A stretch of DNA of 36,019 nt, taken from the NCBI GenBank assembly GCA_945872305.1, contig CAMCAC010000005.1, positions 1 through 36,019 on the forward strand. The letters are read 5' to 3'. The DNA comes from Candidatus Kuenenia stuttgartensis. Lineage in GTDB: Bacteria; Planctomycetota; UBA11346. Positions 1-9,885 of the stretch are shown one piece after another. Position 1 is the stretch's first letter. Each line of letters starts with the position of its first letter. The position numbers and the translations under genes were made by a program. The notes under the pieces are model-generated. The model was not told where the DNA came from. It did not search any database and was given only the letters and a program-made list of their open reading frames with translations.

Positions 1-60
1 GAGCCGGCGGGAGTCGCGGAGGTCGTTGTCACGGGGCTGGAGCAGCATGGCGGGCAGCAT
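1..60 (-). CDS. 5' end of a truncated gene, possibly glycoside hydrolase family 2
   Basis: Only about 20 codons are present; the gene runs off the left edge. On the minus strand an ATG at 60 (or a second at 48) opens a frame with no stop to the window edge, reading MLPAMLLQPRDNDLRDSRRL. The pattern ML-x-P-x-x-N-x-x-R-x-x-x-x-L resembles the start of beta-glucuronidase and beta-galactosidase-like GH2 proteins, which typically continue with a GLW-x-F motif, but that part lies outside the window. It would be the next gene after the Gfo/Idh/MocA oxidoreductase on the same strand, with 54 bases between them. The assignment is a guess from a very short stretch. Confidence 0.3.
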   Translation of the reverse strand, partial: MLPAMLLQPRDNDLRDSRRL

Positions 61-114
61 GCCGCGCCGTCCGGAGCCGCCACCCGGTCCGCGCACTGGG
101 GACGGGGATCCGGC

Positions 115-1116
115 TCACTCCCCCGGATAGCGCAATCCCCAGGGCGCCCGCAGGGCGTCGAGGGTGTCCATGACCGCGATGGTGGTGGCGAGGGGCCGCT
201 TCGGACTTTCCCGCAGGCCGGCGCGGAGGCAGCGGTCCACCTCGAGGATCTCGAACTGGTAGCCGTGGCCGGGGACCGGGTCCTCGACCCGGCGCGGGGG
301 CTGGCCCTCGGCCTCGACGGTGTAGGCGGCGGGGTGGAAGAAATCATCCACGACGATGCGGCCGCGGGTGCCGTGGATACGGGCCTGGTGCGGGACCTTC
401 AGGTCGAAGGCGGACATGAGTTGGGCCTGGCCGCCGCCGGGGAACTCCAGCAGGTAGGCGCTCTGGGCGTCCACGCCCTGGTCGCTGCGGCGCATGAGCG
501 AGAAGCGGGCGATGGGGTCGGCGCGGAAGATGAGCTGGGCGTAGGTGACCGGGTAGATGCCGAGGTCGAGCAGGGCGCCGCCGGCCAGGGCCGGGTTGAC
601 CATGCGCGACGACCGATCCCACTCGTGACGGATGCCGAAATCCGCCTGGAGCAGGCGCACCTCGCCGATGACGCCGGCGGCCAGTTCCCCGAGCAACCGC
701 TCGACGCCGGGAAAGAAGCGCGTCCACATCGCCTCCATCAGGAAGCAGTCCGCCACCGCCGCCGCCGCGGCGAGATCCCGGGCTTGGGCGGCATTCAGGG
801 TGAGGGGCTTCTCGCACAGCACCGCCTTGCCGTGGGCAAGGGCGAGGCGGGTGTTGGCGTGGTGGCGCTCGTGGGTGGTGGCGACGTAGACCGCATCCAC
901 ATCGTCGCGGCGGCACAGGGCTTCGTAATCATCCAGGGCCGCGCCGGCGCCGTGGGCCGCGGCGAAGGTGGCGGCCTTGCCCGGGGTCAGGCTGGCCACG
1001 GCCGCCAGGGATTGGCCGGGGACGAGCCGGAGGTCCTCGGCGAACTGGCGGGCGATGTTGCCGCAGCCGAGGATGCCCCAGCGCAGCGGACGGTCGGCGG
1101 GAATGGCGGTCGGCAT
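115..1116 (-). CDS. Gfo/Idh/MocA family NAD(P)-dependent oxidoreductase
   Basis: A cytoplasmic dehydrogenase of the Gfo/Idh/MocA family, closest in style to the dihydrodiol dehydrogenase-like branch that acts on sugars or cyclic diols. The N-terminus carries the Rossmann motif GILGCGNIA, followed by the family motif CEKPLTLN with the catalytic lysine of EKP, and the EAMWTRFFP segment typical of this branch. The C-terminal half is the substrate-binding beta-sheet domain. The start is set at 1116 (MPTAIPADRPLRWG), two bases downstream of the HAD gene's stop codon (1118-1120); an upstream in-frame start at 1155 would intrude into the HAD gene. At 333 residues it has the normal length. The tight spacing says it is co-transcribed with the HAD phosphatase. 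The precise substrate cannot be read from the sequence. Confidence 0.9.
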   Translation of the reverse strand: MPTAIPADRPLRWGILGCGNIARQFAEDLRLVPGQSLAAVASLTPGKAATFAAAHGAGAALDDYEALCRRDDVDAVYVATTHERHHANTRLALAHGKAVLCEKPLTLNAAQARDLAAAAAVADCFLMEAMWTRFFPGVERLLGELAAGVIGEVRLLQADFGIRHEWDRSSRMVNPALAGGALLDLGIYPVTYAQLIFRADPIARFSLMRRSDQGVDAQSAYLLEFPGGGQAQLMSAFDLKVPHQARIHGTRGRIVVDDFFHPAAYTVEAEGQPPRRVEDPVPGHGYQFEILEVDRCLRAGLRESPKRPLATTIAVMDTLDALRAPWGLRYPGE

Positions 1117-1117
1117 G

Positions 1118-1892
1118 TCAGAGCCCCATGAGTTCGGCGACGCCGGCGGCCACATGCCGCGGGCGGTACGGGAAGCGGCCGATGTCCTCCCGGGCGGTGA
1201 CCCCGGTGAGGACGAGCACGGTGTCGATGTCGGATTCGATGCCGGCGATGATGTCGGTGTCCATGCGGTCGCCGACGATGACCGTCTGCTCCCGGGTCGC
1301 TCCGAGCCGGCGCAGGGCGTTGCGCATCATGAGCGGATTGGGCTTGCCGAGGTAATACGCCTTGCGGCCGGTGGCGACCTCGACCGGGGCGACCAGGGCG
1401 CCGCAGGCGGGGACCAGGCCGCCCTCGGTCGGCCCGGTGGTATCCGGATTGGTACCGATCAGCCGTGCGCCGCCGAGCACCAGGCGGATCGCCTTGGTGA
1501 TCGTGTCGTAGGTGTAGGCCTTGGCCTCGCCGATGACCACGTAGTCGGGATTCACGTCGTTCATGGTGATCCCTGCCTCGTACAGGGCGTTGAGCAGCCC
1601 CGCCTCGCCGATGGCGTACACGCTGCATCCGGGCATCTGCGTCGACAGGAACGCGGCGGTGGCGAGGGCGCTGGTGTAGAAGTGCTCCGGCGGCACCTCG
1701 AGTCCGAGCCGGGCGAGCTTCTGGGCCAGTTCCCGGGGCGAGCGCTCTGGAGTTGGTCAGGAACAGGTAGCGCTTCCCCGCCTGCTGGAGATGGCTCACG
1801 AACTCCTTCACCCCGGGCAGGAGGCGGTTGCCGTGGTAGATGACGCCATCCATGTCGCAGATGAAGGCGTCTTTGCTCAGGATCGGATGCAT
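1118..1892 (-). pseudogene. NagD-like HAD-IIA phosphatase, reading frame broken by a frameshift
   Basis: Two minus-strand frames together encode a complete HAD subclass IIA phosphatase, a family that dephosphorylates small sugar or nucleotide phosphates. The first frame starts at ATG 1892 (MHPILSKDAFICDMDG) and contains the nucleophile motif DMDGVIYHG and motif II FLTNS. It then leaves register near 1748-1751. The second frame resumes with an ERSPRELAQKLARLG-like stretch and carries the motif III lysine in KPNPLMM and motif IV GDRMDTDIIAG. Adding two bases at the break restores an NSSERSPREL junction and a normal length of about 258 residues. Either the gene is newly inactivated or the sequence has an error there; all catalytic motifs are intact on both sides, which favours a sequencing error or a very recent lesion. 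It lies 52 bases after cysC and directly before the oxidoreductase. Confidence 0.85.
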
Positions 1893-1944
1893 GGCGCCCA
1901 GGATCCCGCGCCGGCGGTCCCGGGGCAAGGGGAGGCTGGGGCGG

Positions 1945-2526
1945 CTAGCGGTCGCCGTCCCAGGTGCCGAGCCGGACCAGGGTCGCGTGGATCCGATCGA
2001 CGCAGGCCGCGATCGGATCCCGCGCCGCATCGCACACCAGGTCCGGATCAGGGGATTCCTCGTAGGGATGGTCAAGGCCGGTCAGGTTGCACAGGGTTCC
2101 TGCCCGGGCCCGGGCATACAGGCCCTTGGTATCGCGCTGCTCGCACACCGCGAAAGGCGTGCTGACGAAGACTTCCAGGAAGGTTCCCGGCGGACAGGCT
2201 TCCCGGGCCTGTTGGCGACCGGCCCGGAACGGGGAGATGCAGGACACGATGGCGATCAGGCCGGTCTCGGCCACCATCGCCGCCACGGCGCCGATCCGCC
2301 GCACGTTTTCGTGCCGGGATGCGGCATCGTATCCGAGATCGCGGTTCAGACCGGCACGCAGGCGGTCGCCATCCAGGTGGGTGCACGGTCGACCCTCGGC
2401 CAGCAACCGGTCCATCAGCCCCCGGGCGATGGTCGACTTCCCGGATCCGCTCAGCCCGGTGAGCCAGACCACCCGGCCCCGCTGGCGGAGCAGGGATTCG
2501 AGCCGGGAGCGGGCGGACACGGTCAT
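1945..2526 (-). CDS. cysC: adenylylsulfate (APS) kinase
   Basis: Phosphorylates APS with ATP to give PAPS, the universal sulfate donor. At 193 residues it is a stand-alone APS kinase of usual length. Visible motifs are the P-loop GLSGSGKST, the DGDRLRAGLNRDLG segment, RHENVRRIG, the lid motif CISPFRAGR and the family stretch CEQRDTKGLYARARAG followed by TGLDHPYE. Its ATG at 2526 overlaps the stop of the upstream sulfotransferase gene by four bases (ATGA), so the two are translationally coupled. Because no ATP sulfurylase or sulfite-reduction genes are alongside, the likely role here is feeding PAPS to the neighbouring sulfotransferase rather than assimilation; that is inferred from context. 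Cytoplasmic. Confidence 0.95.
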   Translation of the reverse strand: MTVSARSRLESLLRQRGRVVWLTGLSGSGKSTIARGLMDRLLAEGRPCTHLDGDRLRAGLNRDLGYDAASRHENVRRIGAVAAMVAETGLIAIVSCISPFRAGRQQAREACPPGTFLEVFVSTPFAVCEQRDTKGLYARARAGTLCNLTGLDHPYEESPDPDLVCDAARDPIAACVDRIHATLVRLGTWDGDR

Positions 2527-3749
2527 GATGGGCGGACACCGGGCAGGAACTCCACCACGCAGGGCAGACGGGTGCCGATCGGCACCGCCTCCAGGTACCC
2601 GCCGTCGGCCTTTTTCAGGCGCAACGCGGCGCCGTGGCCCTCGGGGAGGTGCTTGGCGAAGGCGCGGATCCTGGGATGCATCGGCGCCCCAGCCCCGTCC
2701 GCGAAGCGGATGCCGCCGATCCGGGCCACCCCGGTCCAGGCCGACGCCGTGCCATGCCGGGCCATGAGGGTGCGGGCGGAATTCATCTCGCCGACGGTCG
2801 GATCACAGCCCAGAAAGGGCCGTCCACCCAGCTCCGTGCACCGGGCCTCGGCCTCTTCCCAGGTGGCCGGGCCGGGCTCGAAGCGGTAGGCATGGCCGTT
2901 GGCGAGGCGGACCGAGCCATCATCACCGGCCCGGCCCGGCGCCTCGGCCCGCCAGGGCGACCGGTAGTCGATGCCCGTCTCCTCGAACAGGTCCCGGGTC
3001 GCGTCGGCGGTGGCGCTGGTGATGATCTCCACCGCCGTCGGGTCCGGCTCCTCGCTCCACTGGCCCTGGTTCTGGCGTTCCATGCGCTGCGGGCGCAACG
3101 CAGGATCGAGATCGAGCCATTCCAGGAGGCTGGTCAGGGCCGGGGAATCCCCGTCGAGATCCTCGATGGTGAGCACCCGGCAGCGCTCGCGCCCGAAGAG
3201 ACGCCAAGCCCGGCGCAGATCATGGATGTACTGACCGCGTCGGGCATAGGCATGGCGCCAGGTCCACAAGCCGCCCCACCGGGTGCGCCGCGCCTCGGCG
3301 GCGAAGGCCTCCGCCATGGGCAGGGTTTCGCGATCGTTGCGGAACTCCATCCAGTAATGGCTGATCGCCCGCTCGACGGGATGACGGACGACCATGACCA
3401 GGCGCATGTCCGGAGCCACCTCGCGGATCCGCTCCAGCGCGTCCGGGATGCAGATGTAGTTCGGGGTGGATTCCCCGATGACCCGGTGGGCATCGCTGGC
3501 CGCGGCGAAATGGCGCAGGTACCGCGCCACGGACAGGCCCCGCAGCGGGTTGTCGAACTGGTGCAATTCCTTGGGATTCGACATGAGCGCCTGCGGATGC
3601 CTGGCAAGCCAGGCGTGCAGGGTCGAAGTGCCGCACTTCAGACCGCCGACAATCATCAGGTTCGGTGTCCGTTGGGCCGCCTTCCACTGCCGACGACGGC
3701 GAGGGGCCCCGGCCAGCCACAGCCCTCCGAGGAGGTGGTCGACGTTCAT
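2523..3749 (-). CDS. PAPS-dependent sulfotransferase fused to a C-type-lectin-like domain
   Basis: Residues about 30-265 form a sulfotransferase domain of the carbohydrate (heparan-sulfate-like) type: the 5'-phosphosulfate-binding loop GGLKCGTSTL (residues 35-44) and the 3'-phosphate-binding segment VVRHPVERAISHYW (120-133) are clear. Residues about 280-402 look like a C-type-lectin-like domain: YRFEPGPATWEEAEARC, AWTGV, and a final LPCVVEF, with Cys304 and Cys397 placed like the conserved outer disulfide pair; the usual inner cysteine pair is missing. Lectin-like domains normally bind glycans or proteins, so the tail may hold the sulfate acceptor. The ATG at 3749 is preferred; the frame opens upstream to a TTG at 3848 with no recognisable homology. 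It overlaps cysC by four bases, so donor synthesis and transfer are coupled. No signal peptide is obvious. The acceptor is unknown. Confidence 0.85.
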   Translation of the reverse strand: MNVDHLLGGLWLAGAPRRRRQWKAAQRTPNLMIVGGLKCGTSTLHAWLARHPQALMSNPKELHQFDNPLRGLSVARYLRHFAAASDAHRVIGESTPNYICIPDALERIREVAPDMRLVMVVRHPVERAISHYWMEFRNDRETLPMAEAFAAEARRTRWGGLWTWRHAYARRGQYIHDLRRAWRLFGRERCRVLTIEDLDGDSPALTSLLEWLDLDPALRPQRMERQNQGQWSEEPDPTAVEIITSATADATRDLFEETGIDYRSPWRAEAPGRAGDDGSVRLANGHAYRFEPGPATWEEAEARCTELGGRPFLGCDPTVGEMNSARTLMARHGTASAWTGVARIGGIRFADGAGAPMHPRIRAFAKHLPEGHGAALRLKKADGGYLEAVPIGTRLPCVVEFLPGVRPS

Positions 3750-3944
3750 GACCACCCACCACGGGCGTGCCGCATCGCGGGGGGCCGCAATGATCCAGGT
3801 GCCCGAAGGTCCATGCTCCCAGGTTCGCCGCCATCGGGACCAGGACAAGATGGTCCGGCGTCCGCCGGCCCGTGGCCATCACCGCGGGGCGGATATTGAC
3901 GCGGACCGGCGCGGCCGATGGTCCGCCCGCAGGAGGGCTCCGCC

Positions 3945-5042
3945 ATGGGACTGTGGGACAAGATCGCCGGGGAACTGGTCGACATCGTCGAGTGGCTCGA
4001 CCCGGACGACGGCACCGTGGTCCAGCGCTTCGCCCGCCACCAGAACGAGATCAAGCACGGGGCCAGGCTCACGGTACGCGAAGGCCAGATGGCGGTCTTC
4101 GTCAACGAGGGTCGGATCGCCGACGTGTTCGCGCCGGGCATGTACACCCTGGTCACCGCCAACCTGCCGATCCTGTCCACCCTCAAGGGCTGGATGCACG
4201 GCTTCAACAGCCCGTTCAAGGCCGAGGTGTACTTCGTCGCCACCCGGCTGTTCACCGACCGCAAGTGGGGCACCCGCAACCCGCTCATCCTGCGCGATGC
4301 GGAGTTCGGCATGGTCCGCCTGCGCGCCTTCGGCTCCGGCTGCCTGCGGGTGGTGAATGCCGAGACCCTGGTCCAGAAGGTGGTCGGCAGCGACGGGGTG
4401 TGGACCCTGGGCGACTTCGACGAGACCTACCGCAACCTGATCGCCGCCGCGTTCCCCGGGGCGGTGGCCGCCGCCGGCGTACCGCTGCTCGACCTGGCGG
4501 CGCACTACGGGCGGATCGCCGCAGAGATGCACAAGGCCGCCGGGCCGACCTTCGCCGCCTGGGGCCTGGAACTGAGCGAGTTCCGGGTCGAGAACATCTC
4601 CCTGCCGCCGGAGGTCGAGGCCCTCCTCGACAAGCGGACCGGCATGGGCGCCCTGGGGGATCTCAACCGCTTCACCCAGTTCCAGGCCGCCAACGCCATC
4701 CCGATCGCCGCCGCCAACCCCGGCGGCGGGGTCGCCGCCGCCGCCATGGGCGCCGGTCTGGGCTTCGGCATGGGCGCCCAGATGGCCGCCGGCTTCCCGC
4801 CGCCGATGCCGGCCCCCGCGGCCCCGGCCATGCCCCCGCCCCTGCCGGCGGCGCCGGCGTTCCATGTGGCCCTCGACGGCCAGCAGGCAGGACCGTTCGA
4901 CCCGGCCCAGCTCCAGCAGCTCGCCGCCGCCGGGCGGCTGCGCCCGGACACCCTGGTATGGCGGGCGGGCCTGGCGGGCTGGCTGCCGGCGGCCCAGGTG
5001 CCGGACCTGGCCGGACTGATCCCGCCGGCGCTGCCCCGCTGA
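3945..5042 (+). CDS. SPFH-domain (virion core protein/YdjI-like) protein with C-terminal GYF_2 domain
   Basis: The first 230 or so residues (MGLWDKIAGELVDIVEW... onwards) match the SPFH/Band-7-like 'virion core protein' family represented by B. subtilis YdjI, which assembles at the membrane. A low-complexity Ala/Gly/Pro linker follows (about 240-305), and residues 306-357 look like a GYF_2 (DUF4339) domain: GPFDPAQLQQLAAAGRLRPDTLVWRAG in essence, cut by a W-L-P-A motif; such domains bind proline-rich peptides. The start at 3945 is chosen over 3918 because AGGAGG sits at 3931-3936, eight bases upstream. The zinc-ribbon gene starts three bases after its stop, so the pair forms an operon. By analogy with YdjI/YdjG, a role in membrane-stress protection is plausible, but no pspA homologue is present here. 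Confidence 0.85.
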   Translation: MGLWDKIAGELVDIVEWLDPDDGTVVQRFARHQNEIKHGARLTVREGQMAVFVNEGRIADVFAPGMYTLVTANLPILSTLKGWMHGFNSPFKAEVYFVATRLFTDRKWGTRNPLILRDAEFGMVRLRAFGSGCLRVVNAETLVQKVVGSDGVWTLGDFDETYRNLIAAAFPGAVAAAGVPLLDLAAHYGRIAAEMHKAAGPTFAAWGLELSEFRVENISLPPEVEALLDKRTGMGALGDLNRFTQFQAANAIPIAAANPGGGVAAAAMGAGLGFGMGAQMAAGFPPPMPAPAAPAMPPPLPAAPAFHVALDGQQAGPFDPAQLQQLAAAGRLRPDTLVWRAGLAGWLPAAQVPDLAGLIPPALPR

Positions 5043-5045
5043 CCG

Positions 5046-6131
5046 ATGGCCGGAAGGACCTTCCCCTGCGCCTGCTGCGGTGCGGCGCTCGCCTATGGGC
5101 CGGGGACGACGCGCCTCGTCTGCGGCCATTGCGGTACGGAGAACGCCATCCCCGGGGATCCCGCGGCTGTCGCCGAGCGGGATCTGCATGCGGTCATCGC
5201 CGCCCAGGAGCATGCCGCTCCGCCCATCACCCGCCGGAGCCTCGACTGCCCGGGATGCGGTGCCGCCGTGCAGCTCGCCGCGGACCGGACCAGCGCCCCA
5301 TGTCCCTGGTGCGGCGGAGCCCTCGTCGCCACCGATGCACCGACCGCGATCCGCCGGCCCGACGCGGTGCTGCCCTTCGCCATCGCCAGGCCGGCGGCCC
5401 AGGCCGCCCTCGAGTCCTGGGTTCGCTCGCGCTGGTTCGCGCCCGCTGCCTTCACCGCCATCGCCGGCCCCGATCGCCTGCGCTCGGTGTGGCTGCCGGC
5501 ATGGACCGTGGATGCCCGGACGCGCAGCGACTACGAGGGGGAGCGGGGCGACTCCTACCGTGACACCGAGACCCGCCGGGTCCACGAACATGGGAAATGG
5601 GTGACCAAACAGGTGACGGTCACGCGCGTCCGCTGGCGCCACGCCGAGGGCCGGGTCGCCCGGGACTTCGACGACATCCTGGTCCCGGCCCCACGCAGCC
5701 TGCCCGAGGACCGGGCCAGGGAGCTGGAGCCCTGGCCCCTGGACCGGCTGGTGCCGTTCGACGAGGCCTTCCTCGCCGGCAGCGAGACCGAAACCCCGGG
5801 GCTTGCTGCGAGCGACGCCTTCGCCCGCGCCCGGACGGTGATGGACAAGGCCATCCGCGCCGACGTCTGCAACGACATCGGCGGCGACCACCAGCGGATC
5901 CACCGGGTGGACACGGTGGTCAACGATCCCACCACCAAGCAGATCCTCCTCCCCGTATGGGCCGCCGGCTACCGTCATTGCGGCCGCACCTTCACGGTGC
6001 TCGTCAACGCCGTCACCGGCGAAGTCCAGGGCCAGCGGCCATGGTCCGCATGGAAGATCGCCGCCACCCTCGCCGCCGCCCTGGCCGTCGCCGGCACCGG
6101 CATCCTGATCACCACCATGGTCCGCGGCTGA
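5046..6131 (+). CDS. double zinc-ribbon protein with C-terminal membrane anchor (YdjG-like)
   Basis: The N-terminus carries two TFIIB-like zinc ribbons: cysteines at 8, 11, 26 and 29, then at 68, 71, 86 and 89. The middle (about 100-330) is a conserved globular region seen in proteins often mislabelled as 'primosomal protein N-prime' or 'replication factor Y'; none of the PriA helicase motifs is present, so that name should not be used. A single hydrophobic helix at about 338-357 ends the protein, giving a cytoplasmic domain tethered by its C-terminus. It follows the SPFH gene with a three-base gap. In B. subtilis the corresponding partner YdjG recruits the SPFH protein YdjI to the membrane, and the same division of labour is inferred here. 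Confidence 0.8.
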   Translation: MAGRTFPCACCGAALAYGPGTTRLVCGHCGTENAIPGDPAAVAERDLHAVIAAQEHAAPPITRRSLDCPGCGAAVQLAADRTSAPCPWCGGALVATDAPTAIRRPDAVLPFAIARPAAQAALESWVRSRWFAPAAFTAIAGPDRLRSVWLPAWTVDARTRSDYEGERGDSYRDTETRRVHEHGKWVTKQVTVTRVRWRHAEGRVARDFDDILVPAPRSLPEDRARELEPWPLDRLVPFDEAFLAGSETETPGLAASDAFARARTVMDKAIRADVCNDIGGDHQRIHRVDTVVNDPTTKQILLPVWAAGYRHCGRTFTVLVNAVTGEVQGQRPWSAWKIAATLAAALAVAGTGILITTMVRG

Positions 6132-6250
6132 TCGGCTCCGCGGCTGCACGCGCGCTCACACGTTCCTGACCAAGGCCGCGACAGCCCACCCCGCGGACAG
6201 GCGCGAGCCCCATCGATACGCGCACCACGGCGTGGTGCGCTCCGCGTGAC

Positions 6251-6296
6251 GCGCAACGCCGGGGTAGCCCGCGAAGCGGGCAGGGGCGGAGCCCCT
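6251..6296 (+). repeat. mini-hairpin repeat, copy 1
   Basis: A 46-base element made of a GCGCAACGCCGGGGTA leader and two small perfect hairpins with three-base loops: GCCCGC-GAA-GCGGGC and AGGGGC-GGA-GCCCCT. Copy 2 begins exactly 80 bases later and differs at only two positions. Confidence 0.85.
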
Positions 6297-6330
6297 AGAC
6301 AAGCATTGATGCACGTCGGAGACGCGTCAT

Positions 6331-6376
6331 GCGCAACGCCGGGGTAGCCCGCGCAGCGGGCAGGGGCGAAGCCCCT
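6331..6376 (+). repeat. mini-hairpin repeat, copy 2
   Basis: Same 46-base element as at 6251, with loops GCA and GAA instead of GAA and GGA. The changes fall in the loops and leave both stems intact, which suggests that the folded structure is what is maintained. Confidence 0.85.
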
Positions 6377-6444
6377 GGGCACAGCGCCAGCGCGGCCGCC
6401 GAGGGGCGGTGGGCGGATACCATCGGCGAAGCCGATCCGCCCAT

Positions 6445-6469
6445 CGTTCCCCCGCCCGGCGGGGGAACG
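6445..6469. terminator. 10-bp stem-loop between convergent genes, possible bidirectional terminator
   Basis: CGTTCCCCCG and CGGGGGAACG form a perfect 10-base-pair stem around a five-base loop. It lies between two genes transcribed toward each other. There is no T-tract on either side, so a terminator role rests on position and stem strength only. Confidence 0.35.
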
Positions 6470-6483
6470 AAGCCCCGACAAAG

Positions 6484-6523
6484 GCCGGGGTAGTCCGCGA
6501 AGCGGCGTAGGGGCGAAGCCCCT
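6484..6523 (+). repeat. mini-hairpin repeat, diverged copy 3
   Basis: Shorter relative of the elements at 6251 and 6331 (GCCGGGGTA, then CCGC-GAA-GCGG and AGGGGC-GAA-GCCCCT). It ends eight bases before the flgL stop codon, so it probably lies at the end of the flgKL transcript. Confidence 0.75.
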
Positions 6524-6530
6524 GAAGGTT

Positions 6531-7424
6531 TCAGCGCAGGAAGTCGAGCAGCGTCTGCTGGATCACCCGCGCTCCGGACTGCAGCCCCGCCTCCAGGGCG
6601 GTCTGGGTGAGCTGCATCTTGGCGATGACATCGGGGAGGTCGGCGTCCTCGGCGTCGGAAATGAGTTCGCCGACATACAGCCGGCTGTTCTCGAGCTGGT
6701 TGCGGGTCAGCTCCAGACGCTGCAACCGGCCGCCCATGGCGCCGTGCAGATCGTTGATGTGGTTGGCGGCGGTATCGATGGATCCCATCAGGTCGGCCAC
6801 CGTGGCAGGATCATTGTCCGCCAGGGCATCGCGCAGGTCGGTGAGGGTGCGGAAGATGTCGACCTCGCCCTGGAAGAGGGCGAAGCCGTTCTCGTTGACG
6901 GTGGCGGTGGCGGCCTGGGAGACCGACACCTCGAAGGTGTCGAGGTCGCCCTGGTAGGCGACGGCGGAACGGTCCTCGGCCATGATGAACGGCTTGGTCA
7001 GCACCGCGGTGCCCGAGAAGATGTAGCGGCCATCGTGGACGGTGTTGGCGATGTCGACCAGGCGGGTGAGCTGGGAATCCACCGCCGCCGCAAGGGCACG
7101 GCGGCTGGCCGCGTCCTGGGTCCCGTTGGCACCCTGGACGGCGAGGGATTTCACCTCGTCCATGGTCGTGGCCATCTCGCCCAGGGCACTGTCGGTGGCG
7201 TTCTGGAACGAGATCGCCTTGCCGACGTTGTCCAGGTGCTTGGCTGCCTGCTGATCCTCGGCGCGGTAGCGCATGGCGATCTTGGCGGCGACCGGATCGT
7301 CGCTGACCCGGTTGATGCGCTTGCCCGAGGCGAGCTGTTCCTGGTAGTCCGCCATGCGGGCCAGGGTGCGCTGGTTGTTGGCCAGCACGGTGTTCGACAG
7401 GACGACGTTGGTCACCCGTTCCAT
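6531..7424 (-). CDS. flgL: flagellar hook-associated protein 3 (hook-filament junction)
   Basis: Structural protein joining the flagellar hook to the filament, exported by the flagellar type III system. At 297 residues it has typical FlgL length. The N-terminus (RVTNVVLSNTVLANNQRTL, LASGKRINRVSDDP) is the flagellin-like D0/D1 coiled-coil with the conserved SGKRI-x-x-x-SDDP motif; the C-terminal flagellin-like helix (ALEAGLQSGARVIQQTLLDFL) pairs with it. The variable centre corresponds to the exposed domain. It starts four bases after the flgK stop codon, so the two junction proteins are made from one message, as in many bacteria. No flagellin, cap or hook gene is visible nearby. Confidence 0.95.
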   Translation of the reverse strand: MERVTNVVLSNTVLANNQRTLARMADYQEQLASGKRINRVSDDPVAAKIAMRYRAEDQQAAKHLDNVGKAISFQNATDSALGEMATTMDEVKSLAVQGANGTQDAASRRALAAAVDSQLTRLVDIANTVHDGRYIFSGTAVLTKPFIMAEDRSAVAYQGDLDTFEVSVSQAATATVNENGFALFQGEVDIFRTLTDLRDALADNDPATVADLMGSIDTAANHINDLHGAMGGRLQRLELTRNQLENSRLYVGELISDAEDADLPDVIAKMQLTQTALEAGLQSGARVIQQTLLDFLR

Positions 7425-7428
7425 GATC

Positions 7429-9885
7429 TCACCTCAGGATGTCGAGCAGGGTCTGGATGTTCTCGCGCGCGGTGCTCACGACCCGGGCGGCGGCGGCGTA
7501 GGCCTGCTGCTGGAGGATGAGGTTGCCCACCTCCTCATCGATGTTGACCCCGGCCTGGGAGGCCCGCCGGCCTTCCAGGCTCTGGGCCAGGATGGTCTGG
7601 CTCTCCAGGCTGCGCTCCGCCTGCTGGGCCCGGGCGCCGATGCCAGCGACCAGGCCCTGATAGCTGTCCTCGAGGGTGAAGGCGCCGCCGCCGAAGAGCT
7701 TGCTCTCGCGGACGCTGATCATCTCCAGCAGGCGGCTGTTGTCGCCCTGGGCCCGGGTCTGGCCCACCGAAAGCTGGGTCGGATCCGCCGCGACCCGTTC
7801 CGCCAGATCAAGGTCGAGGGCCCGGCTGCCGGAGAACAGGGCATTGACCCCGAGGGCGCCGAGCAGGCCCGCCTGGTCCGGCTGCGCGTCGGGATTGAAT
7901 TCCACCTGGTATCCGGCGGTGGACAGCGGGCCTGGGCCGAACTGGGCATACACGCCGTCGGCGATCTCGATGGGCGTTCCGGCGGGCTTGGTGTTGTCGA
8001 GGAGCACCTGGAGCTTGCGCTGCTCGGGAGCATCCGGGCTGCCGGTCCAGTAGGTGAACTCGACCAGGGGCGGATTGCCGGGCGCCGCGGTGCCGGCAGG
8101 CGCGCCGATGACGCCGGCGGTGACCACCCGGGCCGACCACGGCCGGGCGGGATCGTAGCTGAGCTGGCCGGTGTAGCGGCCCTTGACCGTCACCGAGGCA
8201 TCGGCCGCTCCCCAGCTGGGCGCCACCGACAGGACCGGGGGCGGCGCGCCGGTGCCATCCATGACCACCGTGAAGGTGTCGCCTGGGCGGAGGATGCCCG
8301 CATCGGCCGGAAAGGTGAAATCGATGCCGCCGACCGAGACCAGACCCCCCGCCGCCAGGGGCACGGTCCCGTGCACCGTCTCCGCTCCGGTGAGCGCATC
8401 CCGGGTGAAGACCTGCAGGTCCCCGGCGGTACTGGCACGGATGCCGATCGGCTTGCCGGCAAAGGCCGCATCCGACCCCGAGGTATTGATCGACAGGGCC
8501 GGACCCGTCCATGCGTTGGCGCTCGGCCGCACATCGAGGGCCGGGGAGAAATCGATGGAGCGGCCGGCGGCTGCGGTCAGGCGCAGGCGGAACGCACCGT
8601 CCACGGCCACCGCCTCGGCGGTGACCCCGGGGATCCCCGCCGACGGCGGGACCAGGGCGAAACCGCCCCCGCTGCCGGTGTTGATCGCGTTCACCAGATC
8701 GCGCAGGGACCGGCCGGTGTCGACCGCGGGATCGAAGCGGACCGTATGCTTGGTGGCGATGCCGGTGGTGGTGTCGAGGACGTTGATGGTCAGGTTGCGG
8801 GCGGTGAGCACCCCGTTCGCATCGCGGAACGAGGGCGCAAATGCGGTCGGGATGCCGTCGGCTCCGCTGACATCGGGGGCCAATGCCGGATCATCGAGAT
8901 CCAATCCGATGTCGGAGAGCGGGATGCCCACGGACCCGAGGTGGCTCTGGGCACGGTAGGCATGGCTCGTGGCGGTGGCGTGGAGCTGGTTGAGGGCCTT
9001 GGCCACCGTTGCCGCCAAGTCATCGATGTCCGCCTGGAGATCAGGCACGATCGTGCCCTGGAGCTCCATCAGGGCCGCGACCCGCCCACCCGTCGGGGAC
9101 AGGGAGGTCCCGCCTGGCGTGAGGATCTGCAGCACCCCGGAGGAGGCGACCGTGGCGGTGAGCGGGTTGGCGCCGCCCAGGCCGACCAGCAGGGCCCCAT
9201 CGCTGTCGATGAGCATCGCCCCATCCGGCTGCGGCCGGGTGCGGATGTCGATGCGCTCGGCGAGCTGGCGGATGAGCTCGTCCCGCCGGTCGAGCAGGTC
9301 GTTGGGATTGTTGCCGAGGTTCGTCTCGGCCCGGATCGACTGGTTCAGGCTGCCGATCTCGGTGGTCAGGTCGTTGATCGCATCGACCTCGCTCTCCAGG
9401 GCGCCGCGGTAATCGTCGCGCAGGGTCTGCAGCCGGTCCGCCAGATCGCGCAGGTTGGCGGTCCAGGTCTGCACCGACTGGGCCGCGGTCGAGCGCAGGG
9501 CCGAGGAATCGGAATTGTTCGACAGGTCCTCGAAGGCTGAGAACAGGTCGGCGGTGGCCTTGGCCAGGCCGGCGTCACCAGGCTCGTTGAACGCGAGTTC
9601 GAGGTTCTTGAGGTTGCCGTCCAGGCTGTCGAGCCGGCCGAGCTCGGCGGTGGCGAGGCGCAGCCGGTTGAGCAGGAGGTCGTCCACCGAACGGCGCACC
9701 GCATCGATGCTCACCCCGCGGCCGAGCTGGCCGGGGCGGATCGACTCCGGCAGCTGGGTGGTCAGCTCCAACCGCTGCCGGCTGAAGCCCGGCGTCGTCG
9801 CGTTGGCGATGTTGTGGCTCGTCACCTCCATCGCCCGCTGCTGGGCGGAAAGGCCGCTGAGCGCGATGAGGAGGGAGTCGGGCAT
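7429..9885 (-). CDS. flgK: flagellar hook-associated protein 1
   Basis: First hook-filament junction protein. The start at 9885 (MPDSLLIALSGLSAQQRAM) is chosen because the family begins exactly there, with the rod/hook motif HNIANATTPGFSRQR; the longer upstream frame has no homology and would run into the divergent methyltransferase gene. The C-terminus (SQAGVNIDEEVGNLILQQQAYAAAARV, broken here as two conserved halves VNIDEEVGNL and QQAYAAAARV) is diagnostic. At 818 residues it is about half as long again as the 547-residue enteric protein; the extra sequence is in the middle, the surface-exposed region, and is rich in beta-type segments. It is followed by flgL after four bases. Confidence 0.95.
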   Translation of the reverse strand: MPDSLLIALSGLSAQQRAMEVTSHNIANATTPGFSRQRLELTTQLPESIRPGQLGRGVSIDAVRRSVDDLLLNRLRLATAELGRLDSLDGNLKNLELAFNEPGDAGLAKATADLFSAFEDLSNNSDSSALRSTAAQSVQTWTANLRDLADRLQTLRDDYRGALESEVDAINDLTTEIGSLNQSIRAETNLGNNPNDLLDRRDELIRQLAERIDIRTRPQPDGAMLIDSDGALLVGLGGANPLTATVASSGVLQILTPGGTSLSPTGGRVAALMELQGTIVPDLQADIDDLAATVAKALNQLHATATSHAYRAQSHLGSVGIPLSDIGLDLDDPALAPDVSGADGIPTAFAPSFRDANGVLTARNLTINVLDTTTGIATKHTVRFDPAVDTGRSLRDLVNAINTGSGGGFALVPPSAGIPGVTAEAVAVDGAFRLRLTAAAGRSIDFSPALDVRPSANAWTGPALSINTSGSDAAFAGKPIGIRASTAGDLQVFTRDALTGAETVHGTVPLAAGGLVSVGGIDFTFPADAGILRPGDTFTVVMDGTGAPPPVLSVAPSWGAADASVTVKGRYTGQLSYDPARPWSARVVTAGVIGAPAGTAAPGNPPLVEFTYWTGSPDAPEQRKLQVLLDNTKPAGTPIEIADGVYAQFGPGPLSTAGYQVEFNPDAQPDQAGLLGALGVNALFSGSRALDLDLAERVAADPTQLSVGQTRAQGDNSRLLEMISVRESKLFGGGAFTLEDSYQGLVAGIGARAQQAERSLESQTILAQSLEGRRASQAGVNIDEEVGNLILQQQAYAAAARVVSTARENIQTLLDILR

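Follow-up and report, generated by a model that had tools for sequence, protein, structure and literature searches.

The window analyzed here spans contig C5 in full (36,019 bases), from a metagenome assembly that comprises 2.9 Mb in 275 contigs and is 78.7% complete, and it encodes a putative PAPS-dependent sulfotransferase with a divergent C-type-lectin-like domain as its C-terminal tail. Its gene overlaps cysC, whose product is predicted to supply the enzyme with PAPS. On balance, the pair seems to constitute a two-gene cytoplasmic sulfation module in which CysC provides PAPS and the tail positions or selects either the acceptor or another protein.

The sulfotransferase and cysC genes overlap

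Both reading frames described in the initial annotation were confirmed at their place on the minus strand, on which all features of this gene pair lie. The sulfotransferase gene (positions 2523 to 3749) runs from an ATG at 3749 to a stop at 2523 and encodes 408 amino acids; a longer alternative beginning with TTG at 3848 is possible. The cysC gene (positions 1945 to 2526; ATG at 2526, stop at 1945) encodes an adenylyl-sulfate (APS) kinase of 193 residues, as judged from the APS_kinase and TIGR00455 matches and the motifs described below. The reported overlap between the sulfotransferase stop and the cysC start was also borne out, the two sharing the 4 bases ATGA (positions 2523 to 2526). On the same strand, 3′ of cysC, lie genes for a HAD-type hydrolase and then a Gfo/Idh/MocA oxidoreductase, and a Band-7/GYF protein and a zinc-ribbon protein are encoded on the opposite strand 5′ of the sulfotransferase gene. 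No polysaccharide or glycan genes were found next to the sulfotransferase-cysC pair. The HAD-IIA hydrolase gene (positions 1118 to 1896, minus strand) is split by a frameshift near position 1757, through either a sequencing error or a broken gene.

The sulfotransferase core resembles 3-O-sulfotransferases

The sulfotransferase core (residues 28 to 262, positions 2964 to 3668) was recognized from Pfam, an alignment with 35 relatives, a structural model, and Foldseek. In Pfam, the protein matched Sulfotransfer_3 (E value of 2e-11) and Sulfotransfer_1 (3e-6), with the matched residues lying within 28 to 214, and its Sulfotransfer_3 score of 44.8 bits against a curated cut-off of 27 places it in that family; no NCBIfam model matched the whole protein. 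The core was modeled with a pLDDT of mostly 84 to 97 (residues 31 to 260), falling to 77 at residues 221 to 230. By sequence, the nearest solved structures were those of a bacterial sulfotransferase (3rnl, 1e-21) and of heparan-sulfate 3-O-sulfotransferases (3-OSTs), and a Foldseek search with the predicted core returned the same neighbors, 3rnl and 3-OST-1/3.

Motif conservation was assessed in an alignment of 36 sequences, i.e., the 35 relatives and this sulfotransferase. The 5′-phosphosulfate-binding loop GGLKCGTSTL (residues 35 to 44, positions 3618 to 3647) contains the nearly invariant G35 and G40, and the 3′-phosphate-binding motif RHPVERAISHY (residues 122 to 132, positions 3354 to 3386) contains the invariant R122 and P124 along with a nearly invariant S130. 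Within KELHQFD (residues 60 to 66, positions 3552 to 3572), E61 is conserved in at least 90% of the sequences and aligns with the position that we take to be the catalytic glutamate of 3-OSTs; a catalytic role for E61 here is presumed only from that family. The Pfam match, the PAPS motifs, and the 3-OST-like fold support the earlier assignment of this protein as a PAPS-type, carbohydrate-like sulfotransferase.

CysC as a probable dedicated source of PAPS

CysC matched the Pfam APS_kinase family (1e-56) and TIGR00455 (203.7 bits against a cut-off of 138.7), and its P-loop, DGD, ISPFR, and KGLY motifs are all intact, which identifies it as an APS kinase. APS reductases act on APS directly. The sole PAPS_reduct-family (CysH-type) protein found in the genome is an APS reductase according to TIGR02055 (236.6 bits against a cut-off of 235.3), and it carries the paired CC and CxxC motifs. 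CysC should therefore be dispensable for sulfate assimilation and cysteine synthesis and, since PAPS would not be needed for cysteine, the gene overlap is best explained by a dedicated supply of PAPS. The search of the genome yielded a single true CysC and a single sulfotransferase, which are neighbors. The proposal that CysC is devoted to making the co-substrate of the adjacent enzyme is thereby strengthened, and the PAPS that CysC makes most likely goes to the sulfotransferase.

No ATP sulfurylase (Sat or CysD) that would make APS was found in the 78.7% complete genome. The presence of an APS reductase with no ATP sulfurylase found may stem from the incompleteness of the assembly or from an unusual sulfur pathway. 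Paired CysC domains were also observed in several genomes, at L101, L102, L103, and L104, as a separate CysC beside a longer frame ending in CysC; at L104 (genome G202), both CysC domains are in long frames.

The tail is a divergent C-type-lectin-like domain

The tail (residues 280 to 408, positions 2526 to 2912) had no match in Pfam, even at an E value of 10, and its weak matches in the PDB were the lectin domains of rhodocetin and aggrecan (E value of about 0.9). When the tail was searched against 294 genomes of the phylum, every match was singly at noise level, and the search is informative only when crossed with a Lectin_C search. Six of about 150 listed tail-match places (G003:C7, G076:C3, G195:C17, G226:C24, G280:C25, and G281:C181) coincide with independent Lectin_C matches, against about 0.01 coincidences expected by chance from rough arithmetic on genome sizes. 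The register is the same in all six, with the same tail residue (±1) opposite Lectin_C position 2. A hidden Markov model (HMM) of 28 C-type lectin domains from the phylum gave the tail 15.6 bits, whereas none of 5000 shuffled sequences scored above 4.4, and it delineated the N-terminal lectin-domain signature ANGHAYRFEPGPATWEEAEARCTELGGR (residues 283 to 310, positions 2820 to 2903). Aligned by hhalign with a lectin profile that recovers DC-SIGN, the mannose receptor, and aggrecan in the PDB, the tail gave a probability of 95% and an E value of 5e-8 as a single comparison. Using phmmer, it was also compared with the lectin domains of the G003 kinase singly, the third giving the best match (2.9e-6 as a single comparison, residues 295 to 377). 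That kinase (G003:C7, L144 positions 3086 to 6772, plus strand) is a Ser/Thr kinase of 1,229 residues from the same taxonomic family; it has a probable transmembrane segment and ends in three C-type-lectin-like domains.

A tail model built with lectin-domain relatives reached a pLDDT of 79 and a pTM of 0.73, and its listed Foldseek matches were all C-type lectin domains; as its alignment contained C-type lectin domains, this model is consistent with the other results rather than independent of them. The model obtained with those relatives left out of the alignment was of low confidence, and the alignment is poor over the second half of the tail, which is strongly diverged. The case is thus cumulative: taken together, the profile comparisons, the in-register weak matches, and the predicted fold identify the tail as a divergent C-type-lectin-like domain and not a chance resemblance, as far as sequence and modeling can tell. 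The lectin fold first proposed for this region is accordingly upheld, with structure prediction against C-type lectin folds in agreement even though its alignment leaned that way.

The tail lacks the hallmarks of calcium-dependent sugar binding

The tail contains cysteines at residues 304, 315, and 397. In the alignment, C304 falls on the first cysteine that C-type lectin domains conserve. C397, in contrast, precedes the terminal glutamate by three residues (LPCVVE) and is displaced by two from the canonical cysteine, which precedes that glutamate by one (xxxCE). Of the outer pair 304/397 that was said to be kept, both cysteines are present and C304 is canonical, but the displacement of C397 leaves the pair only partly conserved; the inner pair is missing, as had been noted. 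The tail therefore does not show the conserved disulfide pairs of C-type lectin domains. It does not show the features of calcium-dependent sugar binding either, the EPN/QPD and WND calcium/sugar motifs being absent from the aligned tail. No signal or membrane segment was found in the sulfotransferase protein, and no strongly hydrophobic segment was seen. As PAPS, too, is cytosolic, the cytosol is the most likely place of action of the tail, and no disulfide is expected there. Given the absent motifs, the displaced C397, and this probable cellular site, “lectin” is here the name of a fold and not of an activity. The initial annotation had also suggested that the tail recognizes a specific glycan or glycoprotein; the present results do not support glycan recognition, given the missing calcium/sugar motifs, the disulfide that is not expected to form, and the lack of nearby polysaccharide genes.

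The fusion is restricted to one lineage

When 22 genomes from the same family were searched at an E value of 0.001, no relative of the sulfotransferase was found; four of these genomes encode other Sulfotransfer_3 proteins, none with a lectin domain. Among 79 sulfotransferase frames (69 loci, some frames overlapping), this is the only one with a lectin domain. A search with degenerate peptides across collections of genome contigs and viral contigs did not detect the fusion, and a tblastn search of plasmids and phages matched the whole protein over its core only and gave nothing credible for the tail. In the part of the literature covered, we found no C-type lectin domain joined to a sulfotransferase. 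These results agree with the rarity initially ascribed to the combination. It had also been proposed that the fusion would be called into question if every close relative lacked it. None of the 22 family members has the fusion, but this absence shows its lineage restriction and does not make it unreal. The single observation of the fusion comes from a metagenome assembly that is incomplete.

A sulfotransferase gene directly followed by cysC occurs once more among the relatives examined, in G058, where the pair adjoins methyltransferase-, glycosyltransferase-, and aminotransferase-like genes. A separate stretch (G011:C236, L097 positions 3634 to 9526) brings together genes for a TPR-sulfotransferase, CysC, CysQ, and a sulfatase-like protein; its GC content is 0.44, compared with 0.72 for the window and 0.66 to 0.68 for two other stretches from the family. 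An origin from a diversity-generating retroelement (DGR) was considered; positions 1 to 6200 of the window showed no suitable repeat.

Proposed mechanism and alternative explanations

In the mechanism that we propose, CysC would phosphorylate APS to PAPS, and the sulfotransferase, which we infer to be made from the same message by translational coupling, would transfer the sulfuryl group from PAPS to a cytosolic acceptor. This acceptor would most likely be carbohydrate-like, such as an envelope precursor that contains sugar, and the divergent C-type-lectin-fold tail would most likely act independently of calcium in helping to position or select the acceptor or else another protein. The role so proposed resembles that of the lectin tail in animal polypeptide GalNAc-transferases, which guides the catalytic domain of those enzymes. 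A narrower version, comparable in logic to these transferases, is that a cytosolic sulfotransferase reads its acceptor through a fused calcium-independent C-type-lectin-fold domain and has its own PAPS kinase from the same message; we put forward such lectin-guided sulfation only tentatively.

The tail might instead serve protein-protein contact only, by dimerization or by keeping CysC or some other partner bound, and play no part in acceptor choice. C-type lectin folds often bind proteins, a related domain occurs in the G003 membrane kinase from the same family, and a tail that lacks the canonical calcium/sugar motifs would fit such a role; no partner is known, however, and we regard this explanation as possible but rather doubtful. 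It seems improbable that the fusion is an accident in which stop read-through or an assembly error added unrelated or decaying sequence as a functionless tail. Its occurrence in a single metagenome assembly, the frameshift-split HAD hydrolase gene alongside, and the strong divergence in the second half of the tail could be seen in that light, but the frame is open with a coding-like third-position GC content (0.88 in the tail), core positions of the lectin domain are kept, and the cysC overlap is exact. Moreover, no signal peptide precedes the tail, unlike in the separate lectin-domain proteins of the family. As for CysC, six family members have this enzyme with no sulfotransferase like the present one, as would be expected if its role lay in sulfur assimilation generally and the overlap of the two genes were incidental. 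We consider this highly improbable, since the APS reductase of the assembly has no need of PAPS and the association recurs, with a sulfotransferase beside CysC in G058 and a TPR-sulfotransferase near CysC-CysQ in G011.

Comparison with known systems

To our knowledge, acceptor choice in the bacterial sulfotransferases described so far is made by the catalytic domain itself. If the tail is truly a separate recognition part, it would be a natural tool for engineering sulfated glycans, and the list of bacterial enzymes equipped with C-type lectin domains would extend beyond kinases; if it is inert or structural, the fusion would be a minor curiosity.

The pairing of a sulfotransferase with a PAPS gene is already known, and the lectin-fold tail is the new part. 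The presence of sulfotransferase and PAPS genes together is a stated hallmark of sulfated polysaccharide clusters, as in the capsule cluster of Vibrio sp. KMM 8419, where sulfotransferases are encoded with PAPS-making genes (PMC11641403), and the capsule cluster of Cobetia marina likewise includes PAPS genes (PMC11766843). The present sulfotransferase is similarly encoded with a PAPS-making gene. However, those are large polysaccharide clusters with cysD and cysN, whereas the present locus consists of two genes with a 4-base overlap, a lectin-fold tail, and no glycan genes nearby. The enzyme shares its core fold, PAPS motifs, and conserved glutamate with 3-OST-type bacterial sulfotransferases (3rnl) and 3-OST-1/3 but has about 130 additional C-terminal residues. 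In cyanobacteria, C-terminal C-type lectin domains are grafted to kinases as DGR targets (PMC7517822). Like those kinases and that of G003, the protein described here carries a lectin-fold module at the C terminus of an enzyme, but the enzyme is a sulfotransferase, and no diversity-generating repeat was seen in positions 1 to 6200 of the window.
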